In this document: positions 9,386 to 61,089 of the stretch, piece by piece
Layout: each line of letters starts with the position of its first letter
Position numbering within the stretch: position 1 is the first letter of the stretch
NCBI RefSeq assembly: GCF_001649575.2
Contig: NC_051450.1
Coordinates: 11,421,783-11,485,782, forward strand
Direction: 5' to 3'
Length of the DNA stretch: 64,000 nt
Origin: Kryptolebias marmoratus
Lineage: Eukaryota > Chordata > Actinopteri > Cyprinodontiformes > Rivulidae
Made by a program: the position numbers and the translations under genes
Notes under the pieces: model-generated
Databases searched by the model: none
The model's input: only the letters and a program-made list of their open reading frames with translations
Told to the model about the DNA's origin: nothing

Positions 9386-9729
9386 ACCCGGGCCCTAGCT
9401 TTTATTTGCTGTTCATGGCGTCTGGTTTAGGGCTAAGGGCAAGTTGCTTTCTGACGAATAAATAAGCGAATTAGTTCAGGGGTAAGTATTGTCGATTCAG
9501 AGCTTTTTCGTTGAACGTTTGGAAACGTTGGAGGCGTTAAACTTTAATAACGGCGTTACGGACGCTGCGTCGCACGCGAGTGTCCTAATACACAACTAGC
9601 TTAATCTCCGACTGTTGGTCAAAACAAACAGGCTGCTGTCAAAGAGTAACCCAGAGCCGTGTTTGTTTTTGTTTTCGCCGCTGTTTTTCACACCGCAGGC
9701 CTTGTGTTGGCAGCCTCCGAGCGAAAGCC

Positions 9730-16209: not shown

Positions 16210-16285
16210 TAGAGGATTCTGTTTTTGTTGCTACTGCTAAATACTTAATCAGTGCAATAAAAAAAAAGAAGAAAGAAAGCCAGAG

Positions 16286-21841
<5,556 letters not shown>

Positions 21842-22572: not shown

Positions 22573-31531
<8,959 letters not shown>

Positions 31532-35104: not shown

Positions 35105-38100
35105 ATGGAGGACGCAGAGGATGACGTGGCTGTTATTGGAATGGGATGTAATTTCCCTGGAGGTAAGATTTTGAAATGAGCTGAAGTTATCTTCTGTTGT
35201 GCAAGATAAATTATGATTATTGTCATTTGTTTTTGTAGGTGAGGGCTTGGATAATTTCTGGAAAGTTCTTCTGGAGGGAAAGAATTGTGTGGTAGACATT
35301 CCTGCTGAGAGGTTTGACACCAACTCCTGGTACAACGCTGACGTCAACAAGACTGGAAAGACACAAACAACCAAAGCAGCTCTTATAGAAGGGTATGTGT
35401 TTTATTGTCTTATAGAGATAGCTTTTTTTCCCTGTTTCAGTTATGATAAATAAATTTTTTCATATTCCAGGTTTAACGAGTTTGATCACATGTTTTTTGG
35501 GATTTCGGAGGTGGAGGCTGACTCCATGGATCCTCAGCAGAAACTCCTCCTGCAGTGCACATATTGGGCGTTAGAAGATGCAGGAGTAGCCATGGAAAGC
35601 ATCAGCAGAAGCAGAACTGGTGTTTACATAGGTACTGCTCTCACATCTTACATTTCAAATCTGAAGTGCAGATTAAAGATACGACCCCCGCGACCCATTC
35701 TGCTTTAATTGTGCTGCTGCAGGCCTTATGAACAGGGATTATGAGATGATCAGAAACAACAATCCAGACTCAATAACTCACTTCAGTGGCACTGGGACAG
35801 CCACGAGCGTGGCAGCCAACAGGATTTCCTTCACCTTCAATCTCACCGGACCTTCGTTTGTCCTCGACAGTGCCTGTTCTTCTTCTTTGGTGGCTCTGCA
35901 TGTAGCCTGCCAGGCTCTAAAGCAAGGTGAGAATAACTGCTTGCTCTAAAAACAATTAAAGATTCACATTATAGCAAATAGATCAACCCAAAGCTGCTCT
36001 TTGGATGTTAGCTGTTGTTTGATCTGTTCTCTGTCAGTATAATCTCACACATCGTTGAGGTCTAGGCTCTGAAGAAGGCACTTTATGACTGGTAGTATTT
36101 TCTGCTGCACAGGCAGTGTGTTTATTATTATTGCTCTGAAAATCTGAGACGGTGGGGAATCTGATGCTTTTCCAGATGGTTTTGTATGAGGGATCCCCAT
36201 CAATGCCTGCTGAAATGCAGACACAAACCAGGATAGAAATTCCACCAATATTCACAAATGCCTACAGAAACATGTACAGTACCATGCCAAAATTTTAAAC
36301 TACTCCTAATTTAATCATACTTTACTTCCAAGCAGTCAGACTTTCTGTTTCAAAGTGATCTTCATGAATAGTTATTCTGGTCTTCTGATGGTTTTTCAGA
36401 GTTTTTCTTGGGACTTCAGCTGCTTATTGCTTATATTGTGCTGTGTGTGCTTAAAAAAGGAGAAAAGTGGAGGATAAAAGAAGCAGTGTCAGTCCTAAAA
36501 ACTTTCTACAGCAGATGAACAATATATGAAAGTCATGTCTTTTAGACATTGGGAAAACAAATCCAGCAAAGACAAATAGTGGAAAACTAACCAAAGTTCA
36601 AATAAAAACTTTGAAAGCCCATCAGAAAACTTGGAAAGCTATGGATCAAGACCTTTTTAAACAATTACAAGAAAGTCTGGCTTATTCTTAGAAGCAGAAG
36701 CTTGAAAAATATGGATAACCTTAAACCACTTTCAATACTTTGACTTTTTGAAAATCCTTATTTTGAATTCCGTCTTTCATCTAGGAGACTGTGAGATGGC
36801 GCTGTGTGGAGGAGTTAACTGTGTCATAGAGCCAAGAGTGTTTGTTGCGCTCAGCAAAACCAGGATGATCTCGCCTGAAGGAACCAGCAGACCTTTCTCC
36901 ATCAGCGCTGACGGTTATGGCAGAGGGGAAGGCTGCGGTGTCATACTCCTGAAACCTCTCAGAAAGGTAAGTAAGTGGTTGATTTTCTTGAAAAAGAAAA
37001 CTTATGACAAGCATGATCTGCAATTGTGAACTACAAAGATACTTGGAAACAAACAAATGATCTCTTTTTTAATTTAAAGGCTATAAAGGATTATAACAAA
37101 ATATGGGGCATCATATGCAAAACGGCAATAAACCAGGATGGGCGCTCTAGCACTCCAATCACCAAACCCTCCATGACACAGCAAGAAGAGCTGCTGCGAG
37201 GAATCTACTCAGACAATGAAATAGCAAACGTTCAGTACATAGAAGCTCATGGAACTGGAACCCCGGTTGGAGACGCAACAGAGGCAGGAAGCATCTCCAA
37301 CGTCATCGCTAATGTCAGACCTCCTTGTTCAAAGACACTGCTGATTGGGTCTGTGAAAGGTAACATTGGACACACAGAGTCTGCAGCCGGAGTGGCCGGA
37401 CTCATTAAGGTACTCCTAATGATGAAACATAAAACCATCGTTCCATCAGTTTTCTACTCTAACAATAACTCGAGTGTAGATGTAAAAGCTCTAAATCTAC
37501 AAATTCCAAGTAAAACTGAGAAATGGGAGGCAAATCAATCATTGGGGAGGGTTGCGGGGGTCAACAGCTTTGGGTTTGGGGGCACAAATGCACATGTCAT
37601 TTTAAGAGAACACAGTCATGAAGTAGTTCCCATAACAGCCTGGGTAAAACTCTTTGTATTGTCTGCATCTTCAGAGAAAGCATTGATCCTGACCATCACA
37701 GACACCCACCAAAGACTTTGCAACGATCAGACCAGTGACTTACACAGCATTTCATACACCTCAGCATGTAGGAGAAGTCACTGCAAAAACAAATTTAGGA
37801 AAGCCTTTTTAACATTTACCCTCCCAGATTTAAAACGGCAGCTCAAATCTGAACTGGAGACAAAGTTTGAGCCAGTGAAGCCTGATGTCCAGGTGGTGTT
37901 TGTATTTTGTGGGAATGGTGTTTCCTACTGGGGGATGTGTAGGCAGCTCATGAGAGAGGTTCCTGCTTTCAGAGAAAAGGTTAGAGAAGTCGAAAACGCC
38001 TTCCAGGCTCACCAAACCATCGACATCAGTCGATTGCTTGCTGGTGAATGTGACAACAGCAATTTCAGCCAGCTGAATGTGGTTCAGCCTCTTCTCTTTT

Positions 38101-41100
38101 TAATTCAAATCGGTATCGCCACTGTCTTGAAGCACTGGGGTGTCAAACCGAATGTTATGCTCGGCCACTCTGTTGGGGAGGTCGCTGCAGCTCACTGCTC
38201 AGGTCTTTTGTCTCTTGAGGATGCCGTAAAAGTGTTGTACCACCGCAGTACCCTTCAGAGCAAAGTGGCAGGAGGAAAAATGCTTGTGGTCAGCAATGTA
38301 GCTGTAAAAAAGGTTTTAGAAGTTCTTGCAGCTTTCCCCGAGGAGATCAGTGTAGCTGCTTACAACAGCCCTCAGTCCTGCACTTTATCAGGAGATGCAG
38401 ATGCTATAGATGCCCTACGAGAGAGACTGATATTCATGTTTGCTGACAAGAATCTCTTCCTTCATGTCTTGGATGTTCCTGCTGCTTACCATAGCTATAT
38501 GATGGATCCAGTTCTAGAAGACCTTGAAAGAAGCATTGGTACTTTGAGCATTAACAACACGGAGTGTGAGCTTTTTTCAACAGTAACTGGAAAAAGGTGT
38601 TCAGATGGTGACTTTAGTTCTGGCACATACTGGGCAAATAACATCCGGAAGGCTGTTTTATTTGATGAAGCTCTCTGTGCTGTCATCAAAGACAGAAAGT
38701 CTAGAGAAAACGTGGTATTTGTGGAGATCGGACCTCGAAGGGCTCTTCAGAGGTACATATGTGAGACTCTTGGAAATGACACCAAGGTTTTTCCCTCTGT
38801 CCAACCAGAGAAGGACTGTGACTCAATCTCCTTGACTTTGGCCAGGCTGTTTGAATTTGGCATTAATGTAAACTGGAATGAGGTCTACAGGGGTTGTGAG
38901 ACATTGCCCACAACTCTTCCGGCCTGTCAGTTTGTCAACACAAAGAAAAATGTGAATTTTGAAGCTTTAAGAAGAGGCAATAAATCACTGACTGTTTCTC
39001 ATCATAGGGTCATATCCCCCCAAAAACAGGATAGGAAAGAAGTAATGTATAACCTCTCATTGGAGATTGCACCATATCTATGGGAGCATAAAAATAACAA
39101 TGTTTCCATTGCGCCAGGTGCATTTTATGTTGAGTTAGCTTTTTCCACAGTGATGGCGAACCTGATGCCAAAGAAACCCATTTCTCTGCTCAGCCTCAGT
39201 GTAACATTTGAGAATGTGCTCACTCTAAACCTAAAATCCCAACAGATGAAGGTGATTTTCGAACAATCAGAGACAGAGGCCTTATTTCAGATACAGTCTC
39301 CTGTTGCAACACATGCCTCAGGCACTATCAGGTGCACAGAGCAACAATCATTGTTAGAGGAATCAACCATCTGTGTTGATATGATCTACCAAAGGTGCAA
39401 ACTGGTTCTGACCAGAGAAGAGGTTTATTCAGTTCTGTTTCAAGCAGGATTTGAGTACGGCCCTCTTTTCAAACAACTGGACAACGTGCGTTATGGAACC
39501 GAATTCAAGGAAGCTGTCACAACTTTCCAAGTCCCTGCTAAACTTCAGCAAAATCTCCATGAGTGTGTAATTCACCCTGTGCTTCTGGATTATTTCATGC
39601 AAATGACCTCTGTGATAGCAATGAGACAACTAGCAGCCAAACAGGGATTTCCTTCACGTATTGGAAGTATCACCGTATCCGGACCCCTGCAGAATGAAAT
39701 GGTCCTGTACTTGCGGGCAACTCAGGAGACAGAAGACTTCCTTGATGTGTGTGGTTGCTTTTCCACCACAGAGGGGAACGTACTGGTGGAACTTAAGGGG
39801 GTAAGGATTTCTTTTTTAGGCTTGATTTCAAATGCTCCTCAATCGTTATTCTTTCATAATGAAACAGTTGCATTAGCAAATGAAGGAGACGTGCAAGACT
39901 GCAAAATAAAGGCAATTATCTTTGAGGATCAACTTGGCATTGCTAAAGGTCTGAGACCGTACTTATGTCCAGAGTCAGTCCTTGTAGAGGGCAGAAAGAA
40001 GCTGACAGCAGGTGAAGTTCGAAGCTTAGTGTTTGACTCACTGAGCAGAAATGAGGATTTAAAGAATATCCTTTTCCTTTGGGGTGTTGAAGACCTCAGT
40101 CACTTGTCCTCTGAGGGGATCCTGGAGTGCTCTGTGACTTGCTGTGAGATGTTTCGCCAGATTGTTTTAGCTGTCAAAGAGAGCAAAAGCTCCTGCGCTA
40201 TAAGGGTCATAACTTACAGATCGACAGAAACCACTGTGGACCATGTGAGTTCTGCTTTTGTGCTTTCCGGTATGTTAAGGACTTGCTCTGCAGAGATGGC
40301 AGGTCTTTATTTTCAGCTGGTTGATCTCGCATCTATAACCAGCGAAGACATCAGTACTCTGGCTCATATGATTAAAACCTCCAAACAACAAGAGGTCAGA
40401 GTCAGTAAAGGGCAGGTATCAGCAATAAAAATAGCACAAACTACAGTGAAAGACAGAGATTTGTTTGAAGATGAAACACACTCGGTGGATCTGAGAGAGT
40501 TTGTCCTTCAGACTACCGACCCATACAGAATGGCTAACCTGTCTACCATCCCTGCTAACTCTGATGGAAGTCTTGCCCAAGAAAAAACAGTTGAAATTCA
40601 GCTTACCAATGTGTGCATTCATTCCTCTGATTTCTTTCCTGTCAGCACTTCCCATTTCAACTTTGGCAAGACATTTTACTGGAACAAGCACGTGACACAG
40701 AACCACAAGGTTCTGGCTTTAGATTTTAGCGGCATTGTCACATGTGTTGGCAGAGATGTCAAAAATCTAAAAGTTGGAGACCATATTGCATCATGCTATC
40801 CTGTCACTGCTGCCACGAAGATTGTGATCCCCGAAGCAGTGTGCTACGGCACAAAGACGCTTCCATTTTTTAGAGAAACTCCATGTGTGTCTTACTTCAT
40901 ACTGGCATGGGAGATGTTACAGAAACTGCTGTCTGAAGTGAAAAAAATGGACAAAAAGTTGGCAATAATCTCCCCAAACCCAGCCTCTGCTCTTGTGAAA
41001 GTTCTTGCTCTCACGGCAAGCAGGTCCGGCTGGAACGTTTCCTCTCGAGCCCATTTCACTGATGAACCGTCGCATTTTGACGCTTTTGTTTTTCTGCCAC

Positions 41101-42530
41101 CTTTTGATCACTGTTTGGAGGCAAAACGTGACAGTGGGGGTCTTGTAAAACACGTTATTTTTGTGCGGAGCAGTCACATGTCACCTTTAATTTCCACAAG
41201 TGGATTTGCATCAAAGAATGGTCAAATTCACATGCATAATCTTGATGTGGCTTGTGTTCTCCAGAGAGCCAACCTACAAGCACAAAACAGAAAAATCTCC
41301 AACTGGCTTCTGTCATTGGGCTTCGAAGCAGAATCTTTGCCTCTTAGAGGGGAGCTGAATCAGACAAATGAGTTTGAGTCCTATTTCATGACAACAACGG
41401 TGCAGCAAGTTGTTTTTCACCATGAAGGATGTGATTTCCCAACATCTGAGAACCACTTGCTCACAAAACCCAGACAGCTTTTTAAACAACACTGTGTTTA
41501 CATTGTAACTGGTGGCTTGTCTGGTTTGGGGTTTGAGACAGTTAAGTTTGTAGCTCAAAATGGTGGAGGCTGTATTGCAATACTGTCAAGAAGTGCTCCA
41601 TCTGATAACGTACGGTTTGAAATGGATCTCCTCCAGAAAAGATTTGGGGTCATTATCCTAAATGTCCGGTGTGATGTTTCTGTGTCACTGCAGGTGGTGG
41701 ATGCCATCTCCAAAATTGGACAAAGATTTTCATCTTGTCCAATCAAAGGAGTGTTTCACAGTGCTGCTGTGCTGCATGATGCACTGATTGAATCCCTTGA
41801 TGAGTCTCTCTTCAGAAAGGTCTTGAAACCCAAAGTAAGTGGTGCTCTGAATCTCCACTTTGCAACACTTCACAACAAACTAGACTTTTTTGTTTGCTAC
41901 TCTTCCATCTCATCATTCATTGGCAATGCCTCACAGTGCAACTACTCAGCAGCCAATTCTTTCCTCGACACGTTTTGTCATTACCGGAGAAATCTTGGGC
42001 TTGCTGGTCAGTCCATCAATTGGGGTCCTTTGAATCTTGGTCTGCTGCTGAATAAAGGCCACTTTCAAAAGTTCTTGGAGGCCAAAGGGTTGATGACAAT
42101 GAGTGTGCGTGAAGTTCACGAGACGCTTAAGAAGTGTCTTTTAATAAACAGACCGCAACAAGTAATATGCAAATTCAACTTCAGAAACCTTAACTTACAC
42201 GTTCTTTCCCAAAACGTGTTTCTCAGGGAGCGGCTGTCAAATTTAGTGGAAGCAGTGCTCAAAGAGGAAGCACAAGAAGAACCCAAAATTCATCTTTCTT
42301 TGTCCACACATGAGAGTCTGAAGATGATTATCGGTGAAATACTGAGTGTGAGTGCAGTTGAACTGGATGATAATTCCTCTCTGAGTGCAATAGGTATTGA
42401 CTCATTGTTAGCCATGACTCTGCAGAACAAGATTTTCCAGGAGACAGGAGTAAATGTACCTCTGGTTGTGTTACTGGACCCCAACAGCACGCTTCTCACT
42501 TTAGTCAATGCTGTCCTGGACAGTGGCTAA
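35105..42530 (+). CDS. Type I polyketide synthase, copy A
   Basis: Animal FAS-like iterative PKS of the vertebrate group that includes fish pks1 (otolith formation) and the parrot pigment PKS. Six exons: 35105-35162, 35239-35392, 35471-35631, 35723-35926, 36785-36966, 37080-42530. They give 2069 aa with all phases closing. Order: KS (about 8-425; Cys176 in DSACSSS, EAHGTGT, GNIGHTE); AT (about 523-820; Ser617 in GHSVGE, catalytic His in AAYHS, malonyl-like); DH (about 900-1190; His923, Asp1090 and Gln1094 kept, but Asn replaces Gly in HxxxGxxxxP); structural KR half; ER-like region (about 1424-1640) without the glycine-rich NADPH motif; KR (about 1725-1910; TGGLSGLG at 1730, Tyr1875); ACP (Ser2028 in GIDSL). 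No thioesterase follows. Tail-to-tail with copy B. Confidence 0.93.
36270..36730 (+). mobile_element. Internally deleted Tc1-like element in pks copy A intron 4
   Basis: The left part resembles a fish repeat that also lies in pks copy B intron 2 ('actttacttccaagcag', 'aaagtgatctt', 'cagctgcttattg'). The right part resembles the 3' end of a Tc1-type transposase frame ('acaattacaagaaagtctgg'). The core is missing. Identification is by recalled similarity. Confidence 0.5.
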
Positions 42531-44035
42531 TTTTATGAAAACGTTCAAAGACCTAAATGATTGTGCAGATTGATACTAAATATGGGGATATATTGTAGCA
42601 GAGAAATTATTCTAATACAAAAGTTTATTAACTTGTTGCCTTAAGTCTGCCACTACTGATTGCTGACAACAATTAGAGGTTTATGGCTACTAGAAAATAG
42701 CTTATTTTATAATAGGGTTCTGTAGGAAGGTTTTGAACATCTTACCATGCAAATTTTTGTTACTATTGTGTCATAACTACTTTTCTACACACAGCTGTTA
42801 GATTTATGTAAACATTTGATCATCTTTAAGACTTTTTAAATGATAAACACTGTTTGACAAAACCAACCTCAGTACTATTGTCCTGAATTTCACTTTTATT
42901 GCTCATATATCTTGTTTTGTTGTCAGAAGGTATTTGTGTTATATAGCTTCTTTCTTACCAACATGTAAAAACAACCCGGCACAAAAACACACTTGTTTTT
43001 AATGTCTGTATGAATGTAAGATAAAACTAAAATGTCTATGTATATTTGAAGTCATAAGAATTTGTAATTGTGCTTTTGTAATATGTAAGTTGTGGACTGA
43101 ATGTACTGAAACAACTGTGAGTTTGATGTTGTGCGATTTAAAACGTAAAGGACTGAATATATAAATAAACCAAGTTTCTTTATTGCAGCGTGATTTATTG
43201 TTACAATGAAGAAAAAAAGGACAAAATTGGGTTGTGAAAAAAGAGAATTTACTGGCATCACATTTTCAAACACTGAAACAAAAAAATGTTAAAAAAGTGA
43301 AAAAAAGATGTTCTAAATAAAATTTTTAACATATCTGGAACGAAGCATAGTTTTTGCAGAATCTTTAACATTGTTTTGCTAACAAAAACTGATGGAAACA
43401 CTTAATAGATTTCTTTATCTTATCTGTTACTTTATCATATCATAGTTTATTTACAAGTTTAAATCAAGGACGTTGTTCTTTTTTTTAACATGTAATAAAT
43501 TAATGGCTCAAACAGCAAAAGACACATTAATTATATCTGTTACCAATAGGTTTATGAGACCTGGCAGAATACAGCATCAAATTTTTCCACCTTCATCATA
43601 AAGCTGATAATCAGTCAGAACATATCAGTGATAAGAAGTGACCTGGAGCAAGACACTGGATTTAATACAGGTAGATAAGCTTAAAGATAAAACTCTGTGA
43701 GGAACATTTATTAAAATTTAACAATACAGTACAAAATAGTAACTTTAACAAACATTTCTGAACTTTAAAACAACCATGTACCCCCCAAAACATATATTTT
43801 ATGTTTAATGCCAACTGTTATCTTTTTATTTTAAAAACAAATGGAATTTATCTGCATACAAATGAGTAAATTTTGATGCCTCTGAAAATGCAACAAAAAG
43901 CTGAACATTGGTAGAAAAATCTGTACAAAAAAAAAATTATACTGAGATAAACACGTGGCATAAACACAAAAATTCTACTCTATCTCAATAGTTATGTAAA
44001 CATCTCTATTAAAGCTGTTGATTTTGTTTTATTTC
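42531..44035. other. Convergent intergenic region shared by both pks 3' ends
   Basis: AT-rich, no coding potential. On the plus strand AATAAA lies at 43164-43169 (copy A). On the minus strand AATAAA lies at 43825-43830 and 43707-43712 (copy B). The two transcripts would end within about 550 bases of each other, and longer 3' ends would overlap. Confidence 0.6.
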
Positions 44036-47000
44036 TTACAGTCTTGTTGAAATATCTATGTCACCCACGTCTTCACTGTCACTCCCACCTTTAGCTGCGT
44101 CACTCAGCGCAGTGATCACCGTTGATAATGTGGCGGTGGGATCCAACAGTTTCACCAGAGGCACATTCACACCTCTCTCTTGAAATATCAGATTCTGCAG
44201 CGTCATGGCCTGCATTGAGTCCATGCCTAACGAAGAAAGAGGGGACTCTTCGCTCAGCTCACTTTGATCAATGTTGATGGTCTCGCTCACCAGAGAGAAA
44301 ACATATTCTTTCGGTGAAACCAATTCGGTTTGTTTTGCCTCCAAATCTGCTTCTTTGGATTTTTGGAAAGCCTCGTCGACTAATGCTTTAAGGCGCAAGG
44401 TCAAGGCTCTATTTTGAGAGAGGATGTTGTACCTGATGTTCCTGAAGTGAAACCTGCAGACGGCTTGTTGGGGCCGGTTGAGCACGAGGCACTGCTCCAA
44501 GCTTTTATAAATCTCGGCCACGTCTAACACCATCATCCCCTTGGCCTCCAGGAAGCGATGGAAATGCTCTTTGTTCAAGAGCAGGCCGAGGTTCAGCGCT
44601 CCCCAGTTGATTGACAGTCCAGGCAACCCAAGCTTGCGCCTGTACTGACAGAACAAGTCAAGGAAGGAGTTGGCCGCCGCGTAGTTTGTTTGCGACGCGT
44701 TTCCCAGGAACGCCGAGATGGAGGAGTAGCACACAAAGTAGTCTAGCTGGCAGTGCTGAGTTGCATGGTGTAAATTCAAGACGCCATTTATTTTGGGTTT
44801 GAAGACCTTCTCATAAAGCGATCTGCTCAGGGTCTCGATAAGCCCGTCATGCAGGACAACCGCACTGTGAAACACCCCTCTGACCGGATAGTCACCGAAC
44901 TTCTGCCCGATGACGGTGAAAACTTTGTGCACCTGCTCAGAGACTGATACGTCACACTCCATGCTTGTGATGCAGTTTCTACACTGTTTCTGGATGTTGA
45001 GTAGCTCTTGCTGCACATCTGATGTTGGTTTGCTCCTGGAGAGAATGACAACATACTCCCCGCCTCTTTGAGAGATGAACTTGACTGTTTCAAAGCCTAG
45101 CCCAGAGAGACCACCAGCCACAACGTACACTGCTTTCTTCCTGAACAGCTGTTTTTTTCCTGGCAACAGTGGAATATCAGACAAGGTACCACTCGTTTTC
45201 TTCCCCAGAGCTATCACTGGAAGTTTTTTTGAGCTGAAATATGACGCTGGTTTCTCTGAATCAGGACTCTTGCTTTCAGATTTCAAACTCTGAAAGGTGA
45301 AGCTTTCAAGAGCAAACTTCCTGCCTAAGTTCAGAGACTTCAGCCAGTGATAAATGTGAGGCCTGCGTGCTCTCAAGTACCCCTTTTGCAAAATTACTTG
45401 CATCTGAATTGTCTGTACACAAACACTTTCCTTTACATTTTGGCACAATTCCTGAGCCAACATACTTTGCATTTGAGATTCACAGATAAATACAACATGC
45501 CGGACACCTGGAAAGTTGCAAGTTTTAGCAGCGAGGGATTCTCCAAATGGTGGTAGAATGACAAATTCATCCACTTGGTTGACAAAAGAGCCATTACACT
45601 GTGTATCAACAATCACGTTCCACCCAGATTTGTTAGCAGTAAGGGCCAAGACTTTCACCAGAGCAGAATCAGGGTCAGAGCAAATGATCCCTAAATTTTG
45701 CTTGGCTCTAGACAAGGCTCGATGGAGTATCTCCCACACTAGCACAAAGTAGGAAACGCAGGGTGTTTTCTGAAGAAACGGGAACCTTTTGGTGCTGTAG
45801 CATACATTTTCTGGCACTTGAACTTTAGTTGCAGCCACAACAGGATAACAAGCAGCAACTTGGTCTCCAACTTTGAGTTTCCGCACATCTCTTCCAACTG
45901 CTGTCACTGTACCGCTGAAGTCAAGAGCAAGTAATCTGTGTTTCTGAGATGAGTATTTGTTCCAGTACAGTGCCTGGCCAAATGTGAGATGTGAGGCACT
46001 GACAGGGAAGTAATCAGATGAATGAACACATATTTTACTGGGTTGAATTTCAACAGCTGAGTGGCTGATTGGATCAACTTCCTTGTCAACAGGAATGGCG
46101 CTCAGGTGAGCCATCTTATGAGCATCAGATGTCTGAAAGATGCAAGGCTTGGATGTTGGACAGGTGTAACTACCCTCTTTGGTTTCAGCGACCTCCAGAG
46201 GGGTGCGGACAATTGAAGGTTTCAAGATAAGCCCGTTCTTTACCACCAACTCTGGGTACTCGTTGCAGGGATGTGATCTTAGGACCTCAGAAAGAGCTTC
46301 AATGTCTTGAGCAGAGACAGTGTTTACATCAATCAGTTGAAAAGAAAGATCAGGTAACTCTGCAGCAAATGATCTTGTCATGCCAGCAAGAACAAAGCCA
46401 GGACTTACGTAGTCCACAGTGATGTCAGATGATCGGTAGGTTACTGCTCTGATTGCTTTGGAGAACTGAATCTGCTTCAGCTCCAGGACTATTCGACGAA
46501 AGATTTCACAGCAGCTTGCCAGATTCTCCAAGATGACATCAGCCACCTGTGACGTGAGGTCCTCTGTGCTCCACAAAAATAGCACCTCATCAAAGTTTTC
46601 TTTAATATTTGTGATGTTGAGATTTGTCAGAAGAGAAGTAAACCCATTGTTTAAGACATCTTTTGCATATGTGAAAGAAACATGCCTAGATTTTGGGTCC
46701 AAATGATGTTGCAGAGCTTTCGAGATCCCCAAATGATCAGAGAAGATCAAGGCCTTTGGAGCAGAAGAAGAAGGAATACGTTTAGGGACAACACTGAAAT
46801 CATTGTGGTAGAAATATTCCTCCCCCACATGAGAGCGACTGCCAAGATACTTGATTATCACATGCGTCAGCTCAGCCAACACTCTGCCTTCTTTATCTGC
46901 AAAGCAGCCGCAAACTTCAAAGTGATCCGTGCCCACGTCAATTGCTCTCAGATAGATAATCATCTCATTTTGCAAAGGTTCGAACACTGTAAGGCTGCCT

Positions 47001-50000
47001 ATTTTGGCAGGAAATCCTGGCCTGCCTGCAAAGATGTGCTCCACTGTAACAGGGAGAAGCTGCATCAAATAATCCAACACAACAGGGTGAATGTAGTAGT
47101 CGTGCAAATGAGGCTGCAGCTCTTCTGGAACTGAAACAGTTGCAAAGGCCTCCTTTAGATCCTCCCCATAGTGCACATCTGCCTTATTCTGAAAGACATC
47201 TCCATACTGGAAGCCTCCTTGAGAGAGATACCCATAAAACTCCTGAAAATTCACAACAGAAGTGCATCGTTTGTAGATGGAGCTTAATGAAATCAGGTGC
47301 TCTTCGATCAACCTCTCTTTCTTTGAAACCACTGTGCCTGAAGCGTACACTACAGATGAGGAAAACACAGTGAAACCAGTCTCCTTTTCCTTTTGTTCCA
47401 ATTGCACCTTCATTTCAGGAGAGTTTTGTGTTAAAACAAATGGACTGTGAAAGTTGACACCGAGCTGCACTGAACTGAGGGGTACTTTTGGCTTAGCGCT
47501 GGCCAGGAATGCAGCCAAACCCATCTCAGCGTAGAACGCGCCAGGGATGATGGGTATGTTATTGTGCTTGTGCTCTTTCAAGTAAAAAGTGGCATCAGAT
47601 GAGAGATTGCAGGTGAAAATGTTGCTTTCACTTCCAGTTTGACAGAGCACAGGATGACTGCTTGGCTTGTTATTCTGGGCTGCTCTGATGATAACGTCTT
47701 TATCGGAGCAGTCGAACTGGTACCTTGGGAAGAACAATGGTGTTGTCTTGTAGCTTTTGTAGAAGCTGTTCCAATCCACCTGAATGCCCAGCTCAAACAG
47801 TTTGGACACAACAGACATGGCTGATTCGTGATCTTTCTGTGGTTCCACTGAAACAACAACAGCTGTGTTGTTTCCCAATGTTTCTATGATATTTCTCTGC
47901 AGTGCCCTTCTTGGCCCTATTTCTACAAAAACTGTAGTTTTTCTTCCTTTAGCTGCTGACTTCAAAGCCTGCTCAAAAGCAACTGGCTCGCGGATGTTTC
48001 TCGCCCAGTAATGGCCTGAGCAAAAATCCCCCGGCTGGACTTCCTTCCCTGTAACTGTGGAAAACAGCTCTGTATCAAGGTCATTCTCCTGTAAGAAGCC
48101 AATTGTTGACTCGATTTCTGACAGAATTGGATCCATCATGTGACTGTGGTAGGCAGCAGGGACATCCAGTACACGGAGGAACAGGTTCTGACTGTCAGCA
48201 GAGCTGATAAACTCCTTGTGAAGGCAATCAATTGCATCTGCATCACCGGAGAGGGTGCAAGACTGTGGGCTGTTGAAAGCAGCAAGGCTAACTCTTCTAG
48301 AGTATTTAGGGAGGACAGAAGCTACCTCTGATACAGCTATGTTGCTGACCACAAGCATCTTCCCTCCTGTGACTTTGGTCTGAAGGGTGCTGCGGAAGTA
48401 TGTGACTTTCACAGCATCCTCGAGAGACAAGAGGCCAGAACAGTGAGCGGCAGCAACTTCCCCCACAGAGTGTCCAAGCACAGCGTCAGGTTTGACACCC
48501 CAGCACTTGAGTAGGGTGGCAATACCAACCTGGATGGCAAATAGCAAAGGTTGGACAACATCCGGGCTTTTAAAGTCAGTGCTTTTAAAGTCAGTGCTTT
48601 CAAAGTCGCTTTCGAGTGTGCTCAGGATGTTCAGGGAGCTCAGAGTTTGGAAAAGATGTGCAACTTCTATGATCTTTGCTCGGAATACAGGCTCATTTTT
48701 CAGCAGCTGTCTGCACATGCCGTGGTAAGTGACACCATTTCCACAGAAGACAAACACTAATCTTGGATCTGAGAGGGCTGGGCTAACATTTTTATCAACA
48801 GTGACCTTTAGCTTCTCTTTAAGATTGTCTACTGACGAGACTACAATGGCCTTTCTGTATTTATGCTTTTGGTGGCTTCTTCTGCAAGCTGATGTGTACA
48901 ACAAAGAATCTAGATCAACTTTGTTGTGTAGTTCCAGCTGTTTAATGGTATCCTCAATCATCATCTTAAGAGATTTTTGTGAATTTGCTGATGTGACAAA
49001 ATATTTCACTTGCTTCTCATTGATTGTGTGCTCAGCACTTGACTGGATGTGCTGTCTGACTATGACGTGCGCGTTTGTTCCCCCAAACCCAAAGTTGTTC
49101 ACTCCCGCAACTCTTGCAGTGGAGGATTTCCATTCCTCAGCTTTCATCGGAATTTTGATGTTCAGGGTCTTTGCATCAACACTAGCAGTTTCAGCCGAAT
49201 AGAAGACGGATGGAACAATGGTTTCGTTCCTCATCATCAGCAGAACTTTGATCAGTCCGGCCACTCCAGCTGCAGATTCTGTGTGTCCGATGTTGCTTTT
49301 CACTGAGCCTATCCGCAGTGTCTCTGAACCAGGAGGTCTGGCTTTAGCGATGATGTTGGAAATGCTTCCTACCTCTGTTGGGTCTCCAACCGGGGTTCCG
49401 GTTCCATGAGCTTCTATGTACTGGACGTTTGCTATTTCATTGTCTGAGTAGATTCTACGCAGCAGCTCTTCTTGCTGTGTCATGGAGGGTTTGGTGATTG
49501 GAGTGACAGAGTGTCCATCCTGGTTGACTGCAGTTTTGCAGATGACGCCCCAGATGTGGTCGTGGTCTTGAAGGGCCTATTAATTAAAAGCAGGAGTCAC
49601 AGTAAAGTCAAAACAGACACAAGTATATACAGCATCTGTAAAAGGAAAAAGTACTCTGTTGACAAAAAATGGTTTCATTACCCTTAGCAGGTTTCTTACC
49701 TTTCTCAGTGGTTTTAGGAGAACCACCCCGCAGCCCTCCCCTCTGCCATAACCATCTGCTCTGCTGGAAAAAGGTTTGCTTGTCCCTTCTGGTGAGATCA
49801 TCTTGGCTTTGCTGAGCGCCACAAACACTCTTGGCTCGATGATGCAGTTGACGCCTCCACAAACAGCCATTTCACAATCCCCTGATAAGATAAAACCCAA
49901 TTATAACCTCACTCAATAAAATTTTAATGCCAGATAAACGATAAAACACAGAACTGTCTTTCAGCAATAGTTGTCCACCCGCTAGTGGGCAGCGGTTCAC

Positions 50001-53000
50001 CGAGTTCAGACCTTGTTTAATGGCCTGGCAGGCGAGATGAAGGGCGACAAGTGAGGATGAGCAGGCACAGTCAATGGAGAGTGAAGGTCCAGTGAAGTTG
50101 AAGATGTAGGAGACTCTGTTTGCTGCGATGCTCATGGCGAGCCCGGTTCCAGTCCAGTGGTTGATCACATTGGGGTGCACGTGTGCAGCGTTCGTTTCAT
50201 AATCTCTGTTCATTATACCTAAAAAAAAAAAAAAACGAATGGGAGCTATACTAGATGGTTCTGGATTTAAGGCTTGAATTAATAAAACTTTCAGAGTTCC
50301 AGCTTTGGCTTTGGGACAAGCAGATAATTGGGTAAATTTTGGCCCACACAAAACTAAAGACACAACAACAGGACCCACATATTTACCAAAAAACACTCCT
50401 GTCCTGGTCCCGCTGGCTTTCTCCATCGGAATTCCAGCGTTTTCTAAAGCTCTGTAAACACACTGAAGGAGCTGTTTTTGTTGAGGATCCATTTGTTCCA
50501 CCTCGCTGTCACTGATGCCGAAAAACCTGTGGTCAAATTCATTAAACCTGTACAAACATACAAAACCAGTGAATTAATGACATATAGCACTGTGCAAATG
50601 CTTTAATCCCTCCTTAATTTGTCAATACTTTGCTTCCAAGGAGCTACACTTTCTTGTAATCTTTTAAAGTGGTTTTAATCAAAAGTTCTTCAAGGTTTCG
50701 GAAGGTCATTCAAAGTATTTTGGGGTTTTAGCTGCTATTGAGCTCATTTTTTGTCCTTGTACTGGACCAGGACAGCATACGGTGCAGTTTGTGCTCATAC
50801 AAAAAGAAGGAAAAGAAGACAAAAGTGTCGGGCCTACAGGATCTACACATTTCAAACTAATATCACTACTTCAAAATATTACAACATGCGCTATTAGTGA
50901 TCCAGACAGCAGCAAGTGCCAGCTAAATCAATGCAGGTAAAGATGTTTCCTTTTAAAAAAATGAAAAAAGTTGTTTTTACAAACCATTTTATTTCTTTTT
51001 TTTAAGTGTGTGTTGTCGTTACACTACATTCCTATCCGTAAACTGTGAAATCCTTAACAATAATACTATTAATCATTAAAAAATAGAATCCGGAGTCGTT
51101 TTGTAAGAAGTTCTGGTATAATTGTCGTGAAGCGTGGAAAAGAGGGCGAACCCGGAGTGCAGACTCTTCTAAAAAGTACTAATTTATTAAAGCAAAAACA
51201 ACACGAGAACAAAAAGGCTGACGTGGCAGCAAACAAACTAAATACAAAAACATAAACTAATGGAGCGGCAAGGCAAGGCAAGGCAAGGCAAGGCAAGGCA
51301 AGGCAAGGCAAGGCAAGGCAAGGCAAGGCAAGGCAAGGCAAGGAACATGCATGGACAGGAAAACAAGAGCAATGAATCAGCGGAGTAGTGAAGAAATTGA
51401 CCGGGTTTTAAACACTGGGGATAATCAGGTGAAGTGGGCACAGGTGAGTAACGAAGATTGACGACAGGTGGAGATGGGTGTGGCAGAAAGCAGGAGTAGA
51501 CTGAGGGCAAAGAGAGGATAATGACAAACAAAGACCATGAGGACAGAACCAAGAGGCAGAGACAGACAGAACATGAGAACAAAACCAAAAGTATAAAATA
51601 AAACTCAAAAATGCTAGAAATCATGACAATAATTTTCCAGCAAAAAGTAAAAGCTACAAAGAAATATTCAAAAGTAAGGCACATTTTTTTTTAAAGATAC
51701 ACAGGCATGAAGAAAAGATACCGGGCCATTATCTACACTGAACATGCTCGTTATCAAAACACATAAACGGTCATATATCTGATTAGGTTACGATAAAGTT
51801 CAAAGCCTTTACCCATCGATGAGGGCAGCCTTGGCAGTCCGGGATTTACCCGGTTTGGTGTCATCAGGGTCATACCAGCTTGAAATGTCAAACCTCTCCT
51901 TGGGGATCGACACGCAGCAGTTTCTCCCGTCAACAAGAACCCTCCAGAAATTGTCCAGGCCTTCTCCTGTTGGTAAAAGAAAACGTCAAAGAATTATCAA
52001 AAGAACGAAGGCTTTTAACATCAACATAAGATTTAAGTTTAATAGGGGGGAAATAAATAAAATTTTAGTTTGGCCGTTAAACGCTGATGGGGTTGCAAAG
52101 GAGTCAAAAGGTTTGGAAGCCAGTCAGTTTGATTATATTCAGGTGCAGCAGTCCATAAGAGCAGGTGGGAACGCAGCCCCACCTAAAAGAAAAAAAACTC
52201 ATCCGCCCCACAAAGCAGTTCCTCCTAATAAACAATGGGAATGACTTAATTACTTAGCTTGCTGTGTATTGTTTTGTTCAGTCTTTTTCAACTATTTTGA
52301 CAATTTTAAATGAAATTTATTGATTTATTTTTGTGATTTATTCTCAGTTTTTGACTTATTTGCTGTAATAAGGTGGTACAGGTCTGCAGATTTAACATGT
52401 CGCCTGTTGGCGGTGATCAGGACTGCAGGGCAGCTCCGACAGAGTCTCATTAGGGCTAAAACATCCCGCACTGTGGACACATTCTGCTGGGTTTAGCTCA
52501 CTGATACAGCCTTACGCCACATGATCTTATTTAATGGAGGTATAACTGCAGCATAACCTGCTGTGTCCAACAGTGGAGATGTTCTGCTTAAAATCCATTA
52601 ATGAGACTAAGTTTGGAAGATAAATAATCAGTCAGCAGCTTGGAGCAGACAGATATGAAGAGAACACAGAAGATTAAAGACAGAGGGGACATTTTCTGTC
52701 TGTAACTGTCTACATCAGCCACAGGTGGATCTTATTTATCTTATTTACCTACAGCATGTGTCTGCTGTGGCTCAGTGGTTCTGAGGTTTAGTAATATGAA
52801 GGCTGCAGGTTCAAACCCAGGTAAGGACTGTAATCAAAGGGTTAAATATATAGATATGCCAGCATCACCGCTTTAGTTTTATATGTGTTAGAATTTCTTC
52901 ACAGTTTTTCCACCATTTACCTTTAATAAGCTCAGCTATTATTGCAGAAATATTACTTTAAATAAAATGAGAAACCCAATCCTGAAACACAAACCTGTCT

Positions 53001-53885
53001 GTCTGTTTCATTTTACCAAGTTAAAACTAAAAATACTCCAGTTTCGGGTGGAGGTGGAGGCGTCTGTTTCTCTGGTTTAATTGTCAAACTGAACTGCTCT
53101 CATCAGACACAACACCGAGAGAAAAAAGGCAACAAGTTTATGCACAAAAAAAGGAAAAAAAAAAGAATATTAAGCAATATAGCCTATCTTTTTTTCACAG
53201 AAAATGTAACAAATTGTAACATTTGTGTGGTTATTGATTCAGGAAATGAATGACGGCTCCACTAAAAGTTATGCTCAGGAGCATCGATTGATTATATTAT
53301 GATTGTTATTAAATAACCCACTGTGTGATGTTTGTTACATCATTTGGTTACGTTTTAAAGTAACTACCATAAATGATGCAATATTTTAACAAGCTTTGTC
53401 AAAACTACTAAATTTCCATTTGACCTTTAAAGAGTTGAAGTATATATTACAATAAAAAATGAATGTCTTGTAAAGTACAAGAAAAATGGCACTACGGTTA
53501 CTTTACTTCACTGAAAATATGCAGGATAAAATACTTTAAAACGTCAAAATGAAACTTTTCTTTTTAAAGGAAAACCAAAGTCCCTTTTTTATTCATTTTG
53601 AAAATATGTAAACACGTTTATTCTTCTTTTACAAAGAAATCCCTAAACAGTTCAGTGAGTCTTTTCATCATCTCTGTTATTTACAAAATGTATGAATCCA
53701 GGATATAAATCGGATGTGATCTTATATGCATGAGGCAGAAAGAGCAGAAAGAGCCGTAAAAGGTGAAAAACCCTACCTCCTGGAAAATTGCACCCGATTC
53801 CCACCACAGCGATCCCGTCCTCTGCTTCTTCCATCCTGACGGGACGGAAAGTATCAGCCGCGTCAGCATCACTTCCAGCCATCAT
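44036..53885 (-). CDS. Type I polyketide synthase, copy B
   Basis: Second animal FAS-like PKS, colinear with copy A over its whole length. Six exons: 53777-53885, 51813-51966, 50387-50547, 50012-50218, 49700-49881, 44036-49576. They give 2117 aa from the ATG at 53885, or 2100 from 53834. The 53834 start aligns with the start of copy A (MEEAED against MEDAED) and has a good Kozak context, so it may be the true one. Internal exon lengths equal those of copy A (154, 161, 182; 207 against 204). From the longer start: KS Cys194 in DCACSSS; AT Ser641 in GHSVGE with AAYHSHMM; DH with His and D...Q kept but Asn at the Gly position; ER-like region without the NADPH glycine motif; intact KR (GGLSGLG, SSIS, NYAAAN); ACP Ser2058 in GMDSM. 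No thioesterase. The exon 4 donor is the unusual GTCTGA. Confidence 0.92.
48566..48610 (-). repeat. Three tandem 15-base units inside copy B AT domain
   Basis: Two identical 15-base units and a third diverged one, in frame, encode a STDFK-type pentapeptide repeat just before the conserved VVQPLLF segment. Copy A has a single unrepeated stretch here (NSNFSQLNVVQPLL). Confidence 0.85.
50580..50830 (+). repeat. Tc1-associated dispersed repeat in pks copy B intron 2
   Basis: Shares 'tactttgcttccaaggagc', 'cttttaaagtgg' and 'ttttagctgct' type blocks with 36270-36480 in copy A intron 4. Both are in plus orientation although the host genes face opposite ways, so the insertions are independent rather than inherited with the gene duplication. 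Confidence 0.5.
51121..51630. mobile_element. Non-autonomous DNA transposon (MITE-like)
   Basis: Ten-base terminal inverted repeats (ATTGTCGTGA at 51121-51130 and TCATGACAAT at 51621-51630, one mismatch) bound 510 bases with no coding frame. The interior has the GA/CA-rich pattern of common fish non-autonomous elements. No clear target duplication was found. It sits in intron 2 of pks copy B. Confidence 0.55.
51267..51343. repeat. (GGCAA)n pentanucleotide array
   Basis: About 15 near-perfect copies of GGCAA inside the MITE-like element, ending at 'aggaacatg'. Confidence 0.95.
51967..53776 (-). other. Intron 1 of pks copy B, with a tRNA-like SINE head
   Basis: A 1.8 kb intron without coding potential. 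At about 52757-52818 a stretch has an A-box-like segment (GTGGCTCAGTGGTTCTGAG) and a good B box (GGTTCAAACCC), as in the head of a tRNA-derived SINE. No full cloverleaf can be drawn, so it is not called a tRNA gene. Confidence 0.5.
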
Positions 53886-56909: not shown

Positions 56910-58830
56910 TTATTCCCACGTTATGGAGAGCATCTGACAGCTCAGCTGCCACAGCTTCTCAGCCAGCTTGTCGTTTTTTCCAGCAACCGAGCAGTTGGCA
57001 GGAGCGCAGTCACTGTAAAAAAAAAAAAAAAACACGATGAGTTTATCATTCAAACACGCTAAGACCCAACGCGGAGGTCTCTGCTCGTTTGCACCTGTAA
57101 TATCCGCCGCTCTCCTTCTCCAGCGACGGCTCCACGGCGCAGTAAATCGTCGTCTGGGCCCCTTGGATGGAGTCCTTGGTGAAAGGCCTGGCCATTTTCA
57201 TGAAGAACTGCTGGGGGCCGCTCAGGTGGCGCCACAAGTCCGTCTGAACCACCCCTGGGTGGAGCGAGTACGCCGTCACGCCTGTGCCTGGGCGAGAGAG
57301 CACGCGTGTGCGGTTAACAGCAGCGGCGAGCGGCGAATACATGAACAGCAGAACACAACAGCTCCCCTGTTTCTACTTCTGTTAATTCTCTCTTTGAAGT
57401 TTCTAAAAAAAAACCCAACTACAATGGAACATTTAGGGTTGCGAGTAAGGATCCACCAATCGTCTGATTGTGCAAATTTGCGCTAGTAACGGCACATCAC
57501 CTAATGAAGAAAACTCAAAGTTAGCTGTTTGAAATAGAGTTGGCATCAGAATTGGCAAGTCGGAGCTTTACAAAAAAAAAAAAAAAAAAGATTGGAATTT
57601 GTACCTTCCAATCTTTTAGCCAGGGAGCGGGTGAAGAGAACGTTTGCGAGTTTGCTCTGTGCGTAGGCCTTGTTCTTGTTGTAACACTTTTCACTGTTGA
57701 TGTCCTCCAGGTTGATCGACCCCCAGGAGTGGGCCATGGAGGACACGGTGACAATCCGGGCCGGCGCCGATCTTTTAATCAGGTCCATCAACAAGTACGT
57801 CAGCAGAAAGTGACCTGGAAAAAAAAAAAAAGAGAAGACTCGAGTTTCAGAGCAGAGAAACGCAGAAGCAGAACAGTGTCGCAAGTAGTTTCTGAGAACT
57901 AACGTAACCAAAACTCACTCGGTTTTGAACTTAGACAAAAAGTCTTTTTTATGTTCAGAAGGGAGACAAATTGATGGTAAATAATAATAATAATAAACAA
58001 CCTTTAGTGAAGCTTTGAGCCATTTGACTTTAAGTTCATAACTTTGTCGGGTTTATTGTTTTTCTTCTCATTAAAGTGACTTCTCTCTCCCTGCTGATCA
58101 AGTCATCACATTCCTGAAAGAGACTCTTACACTTGGTGGAATCTGTTATATATTTAACGTTTCTTGTAGCAATTTGACCACAAATACAACGCAGCATAAG
58201 CTTACCAGCAAAGTGCAAAGACTCGTACAATTGTAAAAACAAAAACTGCCATTTGAATATGGTGTAAATCGACAAACAAACAGTTTAATTAAAGAACATC
58301 GAAGAAGAAGAAAGTGCAGCTATAAGCTGCAACACGAAGACCTCCTGAAAGGGAGAGCTGTTTGTCGAGACGGAGGAGGAGTTTGAGTGATAGCGGAGGA
58401 GACTGTGATTGTCAGGGGGACCAGCTGGCATGAGAAGATGATGAGCCATATTGCTGGAGTTGATGACTCCCAGCCTCTCCAAACCAGTTTATGATCCGAG
58501 CTGTAGACTTCATGAGTACCACTCAAGATTTCTTTTGTAGAAATGGTCTTAACAATGGTAGATGGCTTGCACTTGTATAGCACTTTATCTAGTCCAAGGA
58601 CTCCAAAGCGCTTCACACTACAATCATTCACCCATTCACACAATGATGGCAGTAAGCCACATTGTAGCCACAGCTGCCCTGGGGCTGACCTTTGACCTTG
58701 AAATCAATAAGGATCATCCCTGACCCACGAGGTGACCAGCTGTGTAGTCTGACATTTCTATGTGAAAGGGTGACAGAGTTAGAGCTGAAACTGTCCACGG
58801 ACAGACAGACAATATAATAAAAACTATAAA

Positions 58831-58880
<50 letters not shown>

Positions 58881-61089
58881 CTCTGCATCTTTAAGGATTT
58901 GGATGCACAAAAAAAGCACTTTGTGATTAATTGTTAGTTTGTTAAAGTTCCTGATAGTCTCAGACGTTCTGGCTTTCTGTAAGAGCCGATGTCTGGACAA
59001 AAAGGGGTTTTTAAATACATTTTAGAAAGGAAACCGTCTACTATTTAAATCTTTTTTTTTTTGTTGTGTACCTGTTAAATGAAACCAAATTAAATATGGC
59101 AGACGTGTCCTAATCAGAGGAAAAAAATGTACGGAAATGAACAAAATTATGTTTTTTTTTACCTATACAGGTAAATCAAGATTATTAAGCTAAATCATGG
59201 CAATAATCTCAAATAATCACAAGTGAACAGTTAGAAAGTAACAAGTGCCAGAGCTCGTGATAAAATGAACCTCTGCATAACAGCTTTGAATGAGCACACC
59301 TTGTCCAGAGAACTCTGTTCAACAGTTTTGCTTCTTATTTGATCGAAACACAAGAAAAATCTGCGTTAGACCCTCTGATTGGCTGTGAGATACAGAGTAT
59401 ACACCCACTTCAGTCTGCATACATGCAGAGATTGAAGCTGCAAAGAAAGAAGTTTGAAAATCACACACAAAAGTGTTCAAGAAATCTTGGCATGGAAAAT
59501 AATCTTATCTTCACGATAAATTGTACCGCTTATCAAAGCAAAGGAGTGCCCTATCAGCAATTAGGTTTGAATAATAAACAGCACTCATTCTTAATAATAA
59601 ATCCTCCTAGAGATACAGCAAGTTAAGTTGAACTCAGTTAAACTAAATGTCCTTATCAGTGAATTTGGCACGAAAGTTACCTTTAAAAAAAGCTCAATGC
59701 AAAACATATCAAACATCATTTTGTTTTCATCTAAACAAGCTGATTGTACGTTTATTTAGTAAAAGTATGAAACTGACTCAATTACCTTGCAGTGAATCAA
59801 TGTAAACAACAATATTTAGCTTTAGATTTAGTTCCATCACTGCAAATAGGCAACCAGTGCGCCCCCTGCTGGATGGTTCATGTAACTGAGGACCAGGACT
59901 GATGGAAAAAAAGCAGCCATGGTCGGAGTTATTGGACTGATGATCCAATAAGCTGATTATCTGTTGGATTCATCTTCTGGTAAACAAGTCAGGTGTTAAA
60001 TGAGAACAAGAGCTGAAAAAATAATTGTTACAAAGGTCAAAGGCAGCACAGATTGGTTGGATTTACCCATGTGATTAACGCCGATCTGCATCTCAAAGCC
60101 ATCTGCTGTTTTCCCATACGGACAGACCATAACGCCGGCATTGTTGATGAGGAGGTTGAGTTTAGGCTCATCTGTCGAGAAAGCAAAAAACAAAAACAGT
60201 TTAAGACCTCATGGCTTTTCGGGTAACCTCCAGGGGACCGCTTCGCCTGGGAAACAAACGGTTTTACTTTTGTTGACGGCTTCGGCAAACTCCCTGATGG
60301 ACTTGCTGTCCGACAAATCAAGTTTCATGCAGATTACGTCGTCGTTGCCGGAGCTCTCAGCGATTTCTTTCACAGCCGCCTGTGCTTTCTCCATGTCCCG
60401 GCACGCCAGGATGACTCTGGCCCCTAAACAGAAGAAAAAAAGGAAAGAAACAGGCCATAAAACAACAGTAAGAGTAGAAAAAAGCACAATAAAATGAGGT
60501 TGATTACTGCCACTAACACAGAGCATTTATATATTGTGCAGCCATATAAAGTATTCCACAACCTATAAAAGTTGTAACTTAATACAAACAAGTTTGTGAT
60601 TAAAACACAAAGCCAAGTGTAGAAGAAATATAGGACATTGTTTATTGAGTTTATGTCACAGACAAACAAACAGTATATCTGTTGAAGCCTAAACTTGGCA
60701 GGCAAAAAGATGCCAAGCTAAATATGCTTCCAAAACCACCAAACAGTGGGGGTTCAGTCAGGTGTACCTCTCTTTGACAGGTCTATGGCTGTTTCTTTAC
60801 CGATCCCGGTGTTGGCGCCTGTAATGACCGCAGTTTTGTCACTGAGTTTTACATCAGAGGACCAAGGAGCCCGGAAAAGATTTCTGTGGAAGTTGTGCAA
60901 ATCTCAGATGACTCAATCGACCACATGATGGGTGTGATAGAAGAAAAAACAAAAACCAAAAGCAGGACACTGGCTCGCCTGCGATAAGAGTACTAAATTT
61001 AGCGAATAAATTATCTTAAAGTAATTAAAATACAACTAGTAAATATAGTTTTAGGACATATAACACCGCCCTTACCTTACAGCTTGCAT
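56910..61089 (-). CDS. Retinol dehydrogenase-like short-chain dehydrogenase (RDH11/12 type)
   Basis: NADP(H)-dependent SDR of the retinol dehydrogenase 11/12/13 group, which interconvert retinals and other medium or long aldehydes with their alcohols at the ER. Seven exons: 61076-61089, 60768-60883, 60268-60423, 60067-60171, 57605-57814, 57095-57287, 56910-57012. They give 298 aa with all phases closing. Visible: cofactor loop TGANTGIG (about 31-38), NNAGVM, catalytic serine in VSSMAH, and YAQSK (Tyr and Lys). [12 protein letters not shown] and the C-terminal end LSITWE are typical of the RDH11/12 branch. The first exon codes only MQAV plus a split Arg; the alternative of starting in exon 2 is blocked by a stop. 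The hydrophobic N-terminal anchor of mammalian RDH12 is absent. Likely orthologue of fish rdh12-like genes. Confidence 0.9.
58535..58690 (-). mobile_element. SINE 3' tail fragment
   Basis: Reverse complement of the fish SINE tail pattern ('aagcgctttggagtcc', 'gctatacaagtgcaa'), related to the tail at 29500-29636. It lies in intron 4 of the SDR gene. Confidence 0.55.
58833..58880. repeat. (TA)n-(CA)n compound microsatellite
   Basis: About 16 TA units followed by about 8 CA units in intron 4 of the SDR gene. Confidence 0.95.

Follow-up and report, generated by a model that had tools for sequence, protein, structure and literature searches.

A convergent pair of polyketide synthase genes

The stretch analysed here (the window, 64,000 nucleotides at C21:11421783-11485782 of the 680.65-Mb, 300-contig genome of the fish Kryptolebias marmoratus) contains two complete type I polyketide synthase (PKS) genes facing each other tail to tail. 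Gene 1 (35105-42530 in window coordinates, plus strand) encodes 2069 residues in six exons (35105-35162, 35239-35392, 35471-35631, 35723-35926, 36785-36966 and 37080-42530, of 58, 154, 161, 204, 182 and 5451 bp). Gene 2 (44036-53834, minus strand) encodes 2100 residues, also in six exons (53777-53834, 51813-51966, 50387-50547, 50012-50218, 49700-49881 and 44036-49576, of 58, 154, 161, 207, 182 and 5541 bp); its intron 2 carries a GGCAA repeat array with a 5-nt unit (51257-51353), and an in-frame ATG at 53885, the end coordinate of a preliminary description of the locus, could lengthen the protein by 17 residues. Entry phases are identical in the two genes (0, 1, 2, 1, 1, 0), all five introns of each are GT-AG, and neither has an internal stop. 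The convergent intergenic stretch between the stop codons (42531-44035) is 1505 bp long and contains candidate poly(A) signals, found by eye, for both strands (AATAAA at 43164-43169 on the plus strand and TTTATT, which is AATAAA on the minus strand, at 43707-43712).

The preliminary description, made from the letters of the DNA, had proposed two complete PKS genes of 2069 and about 2100 residues, 1.5 kb apart and equal in exon number, phases and internal exon sizes, produced by an inverted duplication after the intron pattern was fixed, with neither copy a pseudogene. The rebuilt genes agree with it on each of these points, as all five intron positions are common to both copies and both retain active-site residues of the ketosynthase (KS), acyltransferase (AT), dehydratase (DH), ketoreductase (KR) and acyl carrier protein (ACP) domains. 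A TAG within gene 2 fits a splice-acceptor codon ahead of exon 6, because the genome match starts one codon before that exon (49579 versus 49576), and we ruled out a pseudogene. A deposited K. marmoratus protein (P0001) matches the gene 1 protein with 100% identity across all 2069 residues, and another (P0121), an entry named Fatty acid synthase 2, is 99% identical to the gene 2 protein. No third PKS gene was found when the 680.65-Mb genome was searched with the KS family and the gene 1 protein; the remaining matches are one on C17 and one on C5, which we take to be FASN and OXSM, respectively.

Probable gene conversion in the KS catalytic core

The two proteins share 52% identity across 2103 alignment columns, with a mean of 51% outside the KS core. 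At four-fold degenerate sites of the K. marmoratus genes, 38 of 49 match at residues 255-365 (gene 1 numbering) as against 165 of 449 outside this interval (0.37, where 0.25 is expected at random). The best stretch of 31 consecutive four-fold sites has 27 matches, a value reached in one of 20,000 shuffles, and spans residues 276-343, that is 37146-37349 on the plus strand in gene 1 and, in ungapped register, 49307-49510 on the minus strand in gene 2. This tract includes both catalytic histidines of the KS. All three identical coding runs of at least 20 nt (48, 31 and 23 nt) fall within it, and the sole inverted repeat detected between 34400 and 54200 with a 20-nt exact seed has its arms here, at 37067-37459 (plus) and 49197-49589 (minus), which are 85% complementary and 11,737 nt apart. 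Our interpretation is that gene conversion has occurred repeatedly between the two copies and has been limited to the catalytic core of the KS. The copies have therefore not simply diverged since one duplication.

For the comparison with other fishes we used a protein alignment of 299 rows (302 fetched sequences less five that were partial, chimeric or fused, plus the two window proteins), the relatives being the best 120 from each of three protein searches, with no tetrapod relatives among them. It comprises a gene 1 clade of 132 rows, a gene 2 clade of 148 and 19 others. We paired 75 species by hand, each with a row in both clades. At residues 281-320 the two copies of the same species are 0.875 identical, while identity between species is 0.814 for gene 1 against gene 2, 0.798 among gene 1 proteins and 0.836 among gene 2 proteins. 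The gene 1 protein is nearer to its own gene 2 partner than to any other gene 1 protein in 17 of the 75 species at residues 281-320 and in 18 at residues 321-360.

Trees of single segments point the same way. For the tract (residues 262-351 of gene 1, encoded at 37104-37373, with the gene 2 counterpart at 49283-49552), a species' own two copies are sisters in 23/75 cases; for five control segments (the N-terminal half of the KS, the post-KS region, DH and both KR segments) this happens in none, and elsewhere it is rare (AT 1, enoylreductase (ER) 3, residues 352-400 2 and residues 190-252 1). Likewise, the best split between gene 1 and gene 2 types misplaces 60 of the 150 rows in the tract tree and none of the 150 in any of the five controls, with intermediate counts in the other segments (AT 7, ER 7, residues 352-400 11, residues 190-252 20). 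Thirteen of the 75 species have copies at least 97% identical at residues 276-343 and 44–72% identical in three other parts that were measured. The two Spinachia copies agree at all 90 of 90 tract residues (46–69% in other parts), and those of Gasterosteus, Betta and Monopterus at 89 of 90; the copies of these four fishes share tract residues that are absent from the other fishes shown, and are 45–70% identical in other parts.

Age and linkage of the pair

Three trees bear on the time of the duplication. The full-length tree joins the gene 1 clade with bony-tongue fishes (99/96) and leaves the elopomorphs unresolved. A KS-free tree, which omits Salvelinus_alp and Megalops_5 as they lack the motif used for cutting, places Megalops_1 and Anguilla_1 with gene 1 (93/95) and Megalops_2 and Megalops_4 with gene 2 (98/98), while gar, bowfin and sturgeon fall outside both clades. 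The third tree, built from KS-AT, was rooted with bacterial PKS; a scan of bacteria with a single protein found no relative, and one with an alignment gave 21 loci, of which 13 were used. Here the clupeocephalan gene 1 and gene 2 types unite (SH-aLRT 98), with the tool flagging joined long branches. This tree was not used for dating, as long branches meet in it and its KS part is affected by conversion. Conversion in the KS can also explain why the KS-AT and KS-free trees disagree on the age of the pair. The KS-free topology suggests a duplication that predates crown teleosts; we prefer to place it in stem teleosts, after the holostean split, with conversion probably having disturbed the KS part of the trees.

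Both types usually reside on one chromosome. Contig sizes are given for both copies in 55 species pairs, and in 49 of these the two sizes are equal (Boleophthalmus is counted among the 49, at 25,000 for both copies, perhaps a cut value). The fasn2-type gene thus shares a chromosome with pks1, in the same window here and, as far as equal contig size tells, in these species. Tarpon (Megalops) has at least five PKS proteins (P0113, P0114, P0241, P0242 and P0266), a local expansion; four are given with a contig size of 70,001,344 and one with 24,589,123.

Domain composition and predicted chemistry

In both genes the last exon encodes, by Pfam, the C-terminal half of KS followed by AT, DH, KR and ACP, while the N-terminal half of KS is encoded by the earlier exons, as seen from the genome KS match and the alignment. 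The catalytic residues are almost invariant in the 299 rows. The KS cysteine is present in 126/132 gene 1 rows (5 gaps, 1 Leu), 145/148 gene 2 rows (3 gaps) and 19/19 others; the AT serine and histidine, the DH histidine and aspartate and the KR serine, tyrosine, asparagine and lysine (the latter read at residue 1838) are present in every row; and the ACP serine is present in 297 rows (130/132 in the gene 1 clade, with two gaps, and 148/148 in the gene 2 clade).

The ~560 residues between DH and KR have a predicted fold resembling the structural KR plus ER of reducing PKSs and of mycocerosic acid synthase (Foldseek E-values down to 1.9e-12, at a mean pLDDT of 56.7 and with a large rmsd over the full length). 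In gene 1 this putative structural (pseudo) KR and ER remnant covers residues 1165-1725 (39813-41495, plus strand) and lacks the GxGxxG cofactor motif; across the alignment GxGxx[GAS] occurs at the ER cofactor site in 1/299 rows. Pfam found no thioesterase family in either gene at an E-value of 0.001. The working ER and C-terminal thioesterase that mark an animal fatty acid synthase are therefore both missing from what these searches detected, and the NCBIfam matches (best 25 of 47) are to bacterial PKS and fatty-acid models only, all under cut-off. From the sequences, the layout of both enzymes is KS-AT-DH-psiKR-psiER-KR-ACP (psi denoting the pseudo domains), that of a partly reducing type I PKS similar to mycocerosic acid synthase. 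By general PKS chemistry, an enzyme laid out in this way should yield an unsaturated, polyene-like chain, to be released in a separate step. Since the KR and DH residues are intact and the ER has no cofactor motif, each enzyme is expected to reduce and dehydrate its chain without saturating it.

The resemblance to the mycobacterial mycocerosic acid synthase (9d2z, 9d2y, 9d30) extends over several parts: KS to DH aligns as a single piece, the psiKR-ER region matches in fold, and the position four residues after the DH histidine is an asparagine, as in the fish proteins; in contrast to the mycobacterial enzyme, the fish ER lacks the cofactor motif. In both window genes the glycine of the DH HxxxG motif is replaced by this asparagine. 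In the alignment the position (residue 927 of gene 1) is glycine in 110/132 gene 1 rows and 53/148 gene 2 rows, the rest being mostly Asn, Asp, Ser or Lys. We do not call the dehydratase broken, as an Asn occupies this position in mycocerosic acid synthase as well and the DH histidine and aspartate are found in 299/299 rows. The variable glycine may correspond to the 'DH*' of PMC4604110.

Assignment to the pks1 and fasn2 types

PMC4604110 describes medaka olpks, a cloned gene of six exons encoding 2051 residues with KS-AT-DH-KR-ACP, which is required for otolith mineralisation; single-residue changes in KS, DH, KR or ACP gave 0% rescue (its Table 1), and one in AT nearly abolished it (98% without otoliths). 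Otolith-less zebrafish mutants have been linked to pks1 (PMC6531356). Our gene 1 has the same six exons and KS-AT-DH-KR-ACP order as the medaka gene, and all five catalytic domains, each required for medaka otoliths, carry their active-site residues. Its clade includes cyprinid rows named pks1 and a 2051-residue Oryzias sinensis protein, membership of the otolith clade thus being judged from row names and the length of OlPKS rather than from accessions of OlPKS or the zebrafish sequence. Gene 2 groups with rows named fasn2 or Fatty acid synthase 2 from other fishes, apart from pks1. By sequence, gene 1 therefore belongs to the pks1 type, together with medaka olpks and zebrafish pks1 (wu:fc01d11), and gene 2 is the paralogue for which databases use the name fasn2; we infer from this clustering that gene 2 is the counterpart of OlPKS-2 and si:dkey-61p9.11. 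The name fasn2 is misleading, as the layout, which lacks an ER cofactor motif and any thioesterase match, is not that of a second fatty acid synthase. Oryzias has, besides the ordinary fasn2 type, a fasn2-type protein of ~2200 residues on a long branch (P0237, P0239), possibly OlPKS-3.

Medaka and zebrafish depend on their counterparts of gene 1 for otolith formation, and by orthology the K. marmoratus enzyme most likely produces the compound that seeds otolith calcium carbonate; it is 67% identical to the Oryzias protein. As to the other pks genes, PMC4604110 reports the other two medaka pks genes as unexpressed in embryos or adult tissues and gives a kidney transcript for the second zebrafish pks gene. 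Nevertheless, gene 2 is unlikely to be dispensable, judging from its conservation, because outside residues 201-400 the gene 2-type protein is the more conserved one in 2716 of 2775 species comparisons (mean identity between species 0.734 versus 0.667 for the gene 1 type).

Neighbouring genes

Upstream of gene 2 and on the same strand lie exons of a short-chain dehydrogenase (57046-60526, minus), two of whose four frames match adh_short below cut-off, and which presumably resembles a retinol dehydrogenase. A short-chain dehydrogenase acting on polyene aldehydes, beside a PKS without a release domain, could be a pathway partner. On the other side of the pair are an ACBD5- or ACBD4-like gene with an ACBP domain match (9589-13490, plus), a gene with no family match (16249-19865, minus), which we assume from its sequence to be MASTL, and a YME1L1-like gene with a Peptidase_M41 match (23000-31500, plus). 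Since we take the order ACBD5/ACBD4, MASTL, YME1L1 to be conserved in vertebrates, the two PKS genes may occupy an ancestral locus.

Discussion

We consider it very probable that the locus is a pks1/fasn2 PKS pair with a likely otolith-seeding gene 1, created by an inverted duplication in stem teleosts, whose copies diverged except for a KS tract kept alike by repeated conversion. In this mechanism the inverted duplication would have given rise to the pair, most likely in stem teleosts; the copies would then have diverged save for ~200–270 bp of the KS domain with both catalytic histidines, where the inverted arms, separated by 11.7 kb in this window, would have undergone repeated conversion that kept a species' own copies alike in many lineages. 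Gene conversion between inverted or tandem paralogues is known to leave such a pattern, a short tract where the two copies within a species resemble each other more than they do their orthologues. The present case differs in being limited to the catalytic core of one domain within an enzyme of 2000 residues, the rest of which averages 51% identity, and in giving the sister signal in 23 of 75 species. The preliminary description was right about an intact inverted duplicate but missed the age of the duplication, the ER remnant and the conversion tract.

Strong purifying selection on the KS active site could also hold the tract alike in both copies without any conversion, and the presence of both catalytic histidines, together with motifs in or beside the tract that are among the invariant columns, would suit it. 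We regard it as highly improbable, as silent sites agree as well, and as the tract is not in fact constant: between species, gene 1 proteins are 0.73–0.76 identical at residues 281-310 and 321-350 compared to 0.88–0.97 at residues 201-240 and 341-380, and yet these variable parts change in step within a species. A DNA-level element in exon 6, such as an enhancer or a splicing element, would account for the silent sites in both copies, and the silent-site peak does start only 66 bp into that exon; a conserved element would not, however, produce a protein tract that varies between species and agrees within them, and we give this explanation just as little credence. We thus prefer recurrent conversion, since selection fails on the silent sites and a DNA element on the variation between species. 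As for the pair as a whole, a recent duplication or an assembly artefact would fit the equal exon sizes and the union of the clupeocephalan types in the KS-AT tree. It is nevertheless rejected as practically inconceivable given the overall identity of 52%, the occurrence of both types in 75 species, the equal contig sizes in 49/55 pairs and the elopomorph copies in both clades of the KS-free tree; an artefactual inversion, named in the preliminary description, is very unlikely in view of the same identity and of the linkage of both types elsewhere. That description had also suggested a split into an otolith and a pigment enzyme. The otolith half fits gene 1, which falls in the otolith clade, and a bird PKS produces the polyenes that colour budgerigars (PMC10764717). 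A pigment role is unsupported for either copy: our literature searches, none aimed at fish pigment cells, met no pigment link for either copy or for the fish gene 2 type, and the expression reported in PMC4604110 (two silent medaka genes and a kidney transcript in zebrafish) does not favour it. We hold a division into otolith gene 1 and pigment gene 2 to be very unlikely.

Several observations weigh against conversion, dating or layout as we describe them. The K. marmoratus tract (residues 255-375) is 0.86 identical to Austrofundulus gene 1 versus 0.82 to its own gene 2, so the last conversion there was not recent. The silent-site test covers K. marmoratus, the other fishes being compared as proteins. 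Local support for the 23 sister pairs is at least 0.90 (rounded) in 11, 0.55–0.88 in seven and 0 in five; these last are the species with identical copies over residues 276-343, and we take the zeros to arise because FastTree gives no value for identical copies. Small, nominally significant within-species excesses are found elsewhere (e.g. 0.015 at residues 761-800 and 0.011–0.016 at residues 1401-1520), which may reflect weak further conversion or composition. Residues 241-270 are as variable between species as the tract, yet show only a small excess (0.016–0.022), so that the upstream edge of the tract is gradual. The six species pairs with contigs of differing size are Nothobranchius, Scophthalmus, Channa, Brachionichthys, Colossoma and Astyanax, perhaps only because of different assemblies; two of them, Nothobranchius and Channa, give the sister signal although their copies may be unlinked. 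In the KS-free tree Megalops_3 and Paramormyrops_2 form a pair outside both clades, and the position of the Megalops copies varies between the three trees. Finally, the structural model of the psiER is of low confidence.

The existence of the pair is not new, and the idea that two copies are a novelty is unsupported, since Table 2 of PMC4604110 (2015) already counts three such genes for medaka and two each for zebrafish and fugu, and rows named fasn2 exist. The conversion tract and the apparent pre-crown-teleost age of the duplication seem new. Judged by titles and the openings of abstracts, the literature we found on gene conversion or concerted evolution of PKS, vertebrate or fish, contains nothing on fish PKS. 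More speculatively, and with considerable doubt on our part, the inverted arrangement might owe its persistence from stem teleosts onwards in part to the copying of the KS core that it permits, with gene 2 a second player in the otolith PKS1 pathway. Conversion would then persist in KS alone since the two enzymes must process a common chain or combine into mixed KS dimers, and AT, DH, KR and ACP would have specialised while the KS core stayed common.

KS-based trees (KS was used in PMC4604110 and PMC10764717) can mislead on fish duplicates. Attention is also drawn to the little-studied fasn2, which is more conserved than the otolith protein though the other two medaka pks genes are reported as unexpressed. 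In effect, nature has run a swap experiment on an animal PKS here, in which one KS segment has seemingly been exchanged between two enzymes many times with neither broken, and therefore the KS cores of pks1 and fasn2 would be expected to substitute for each other.

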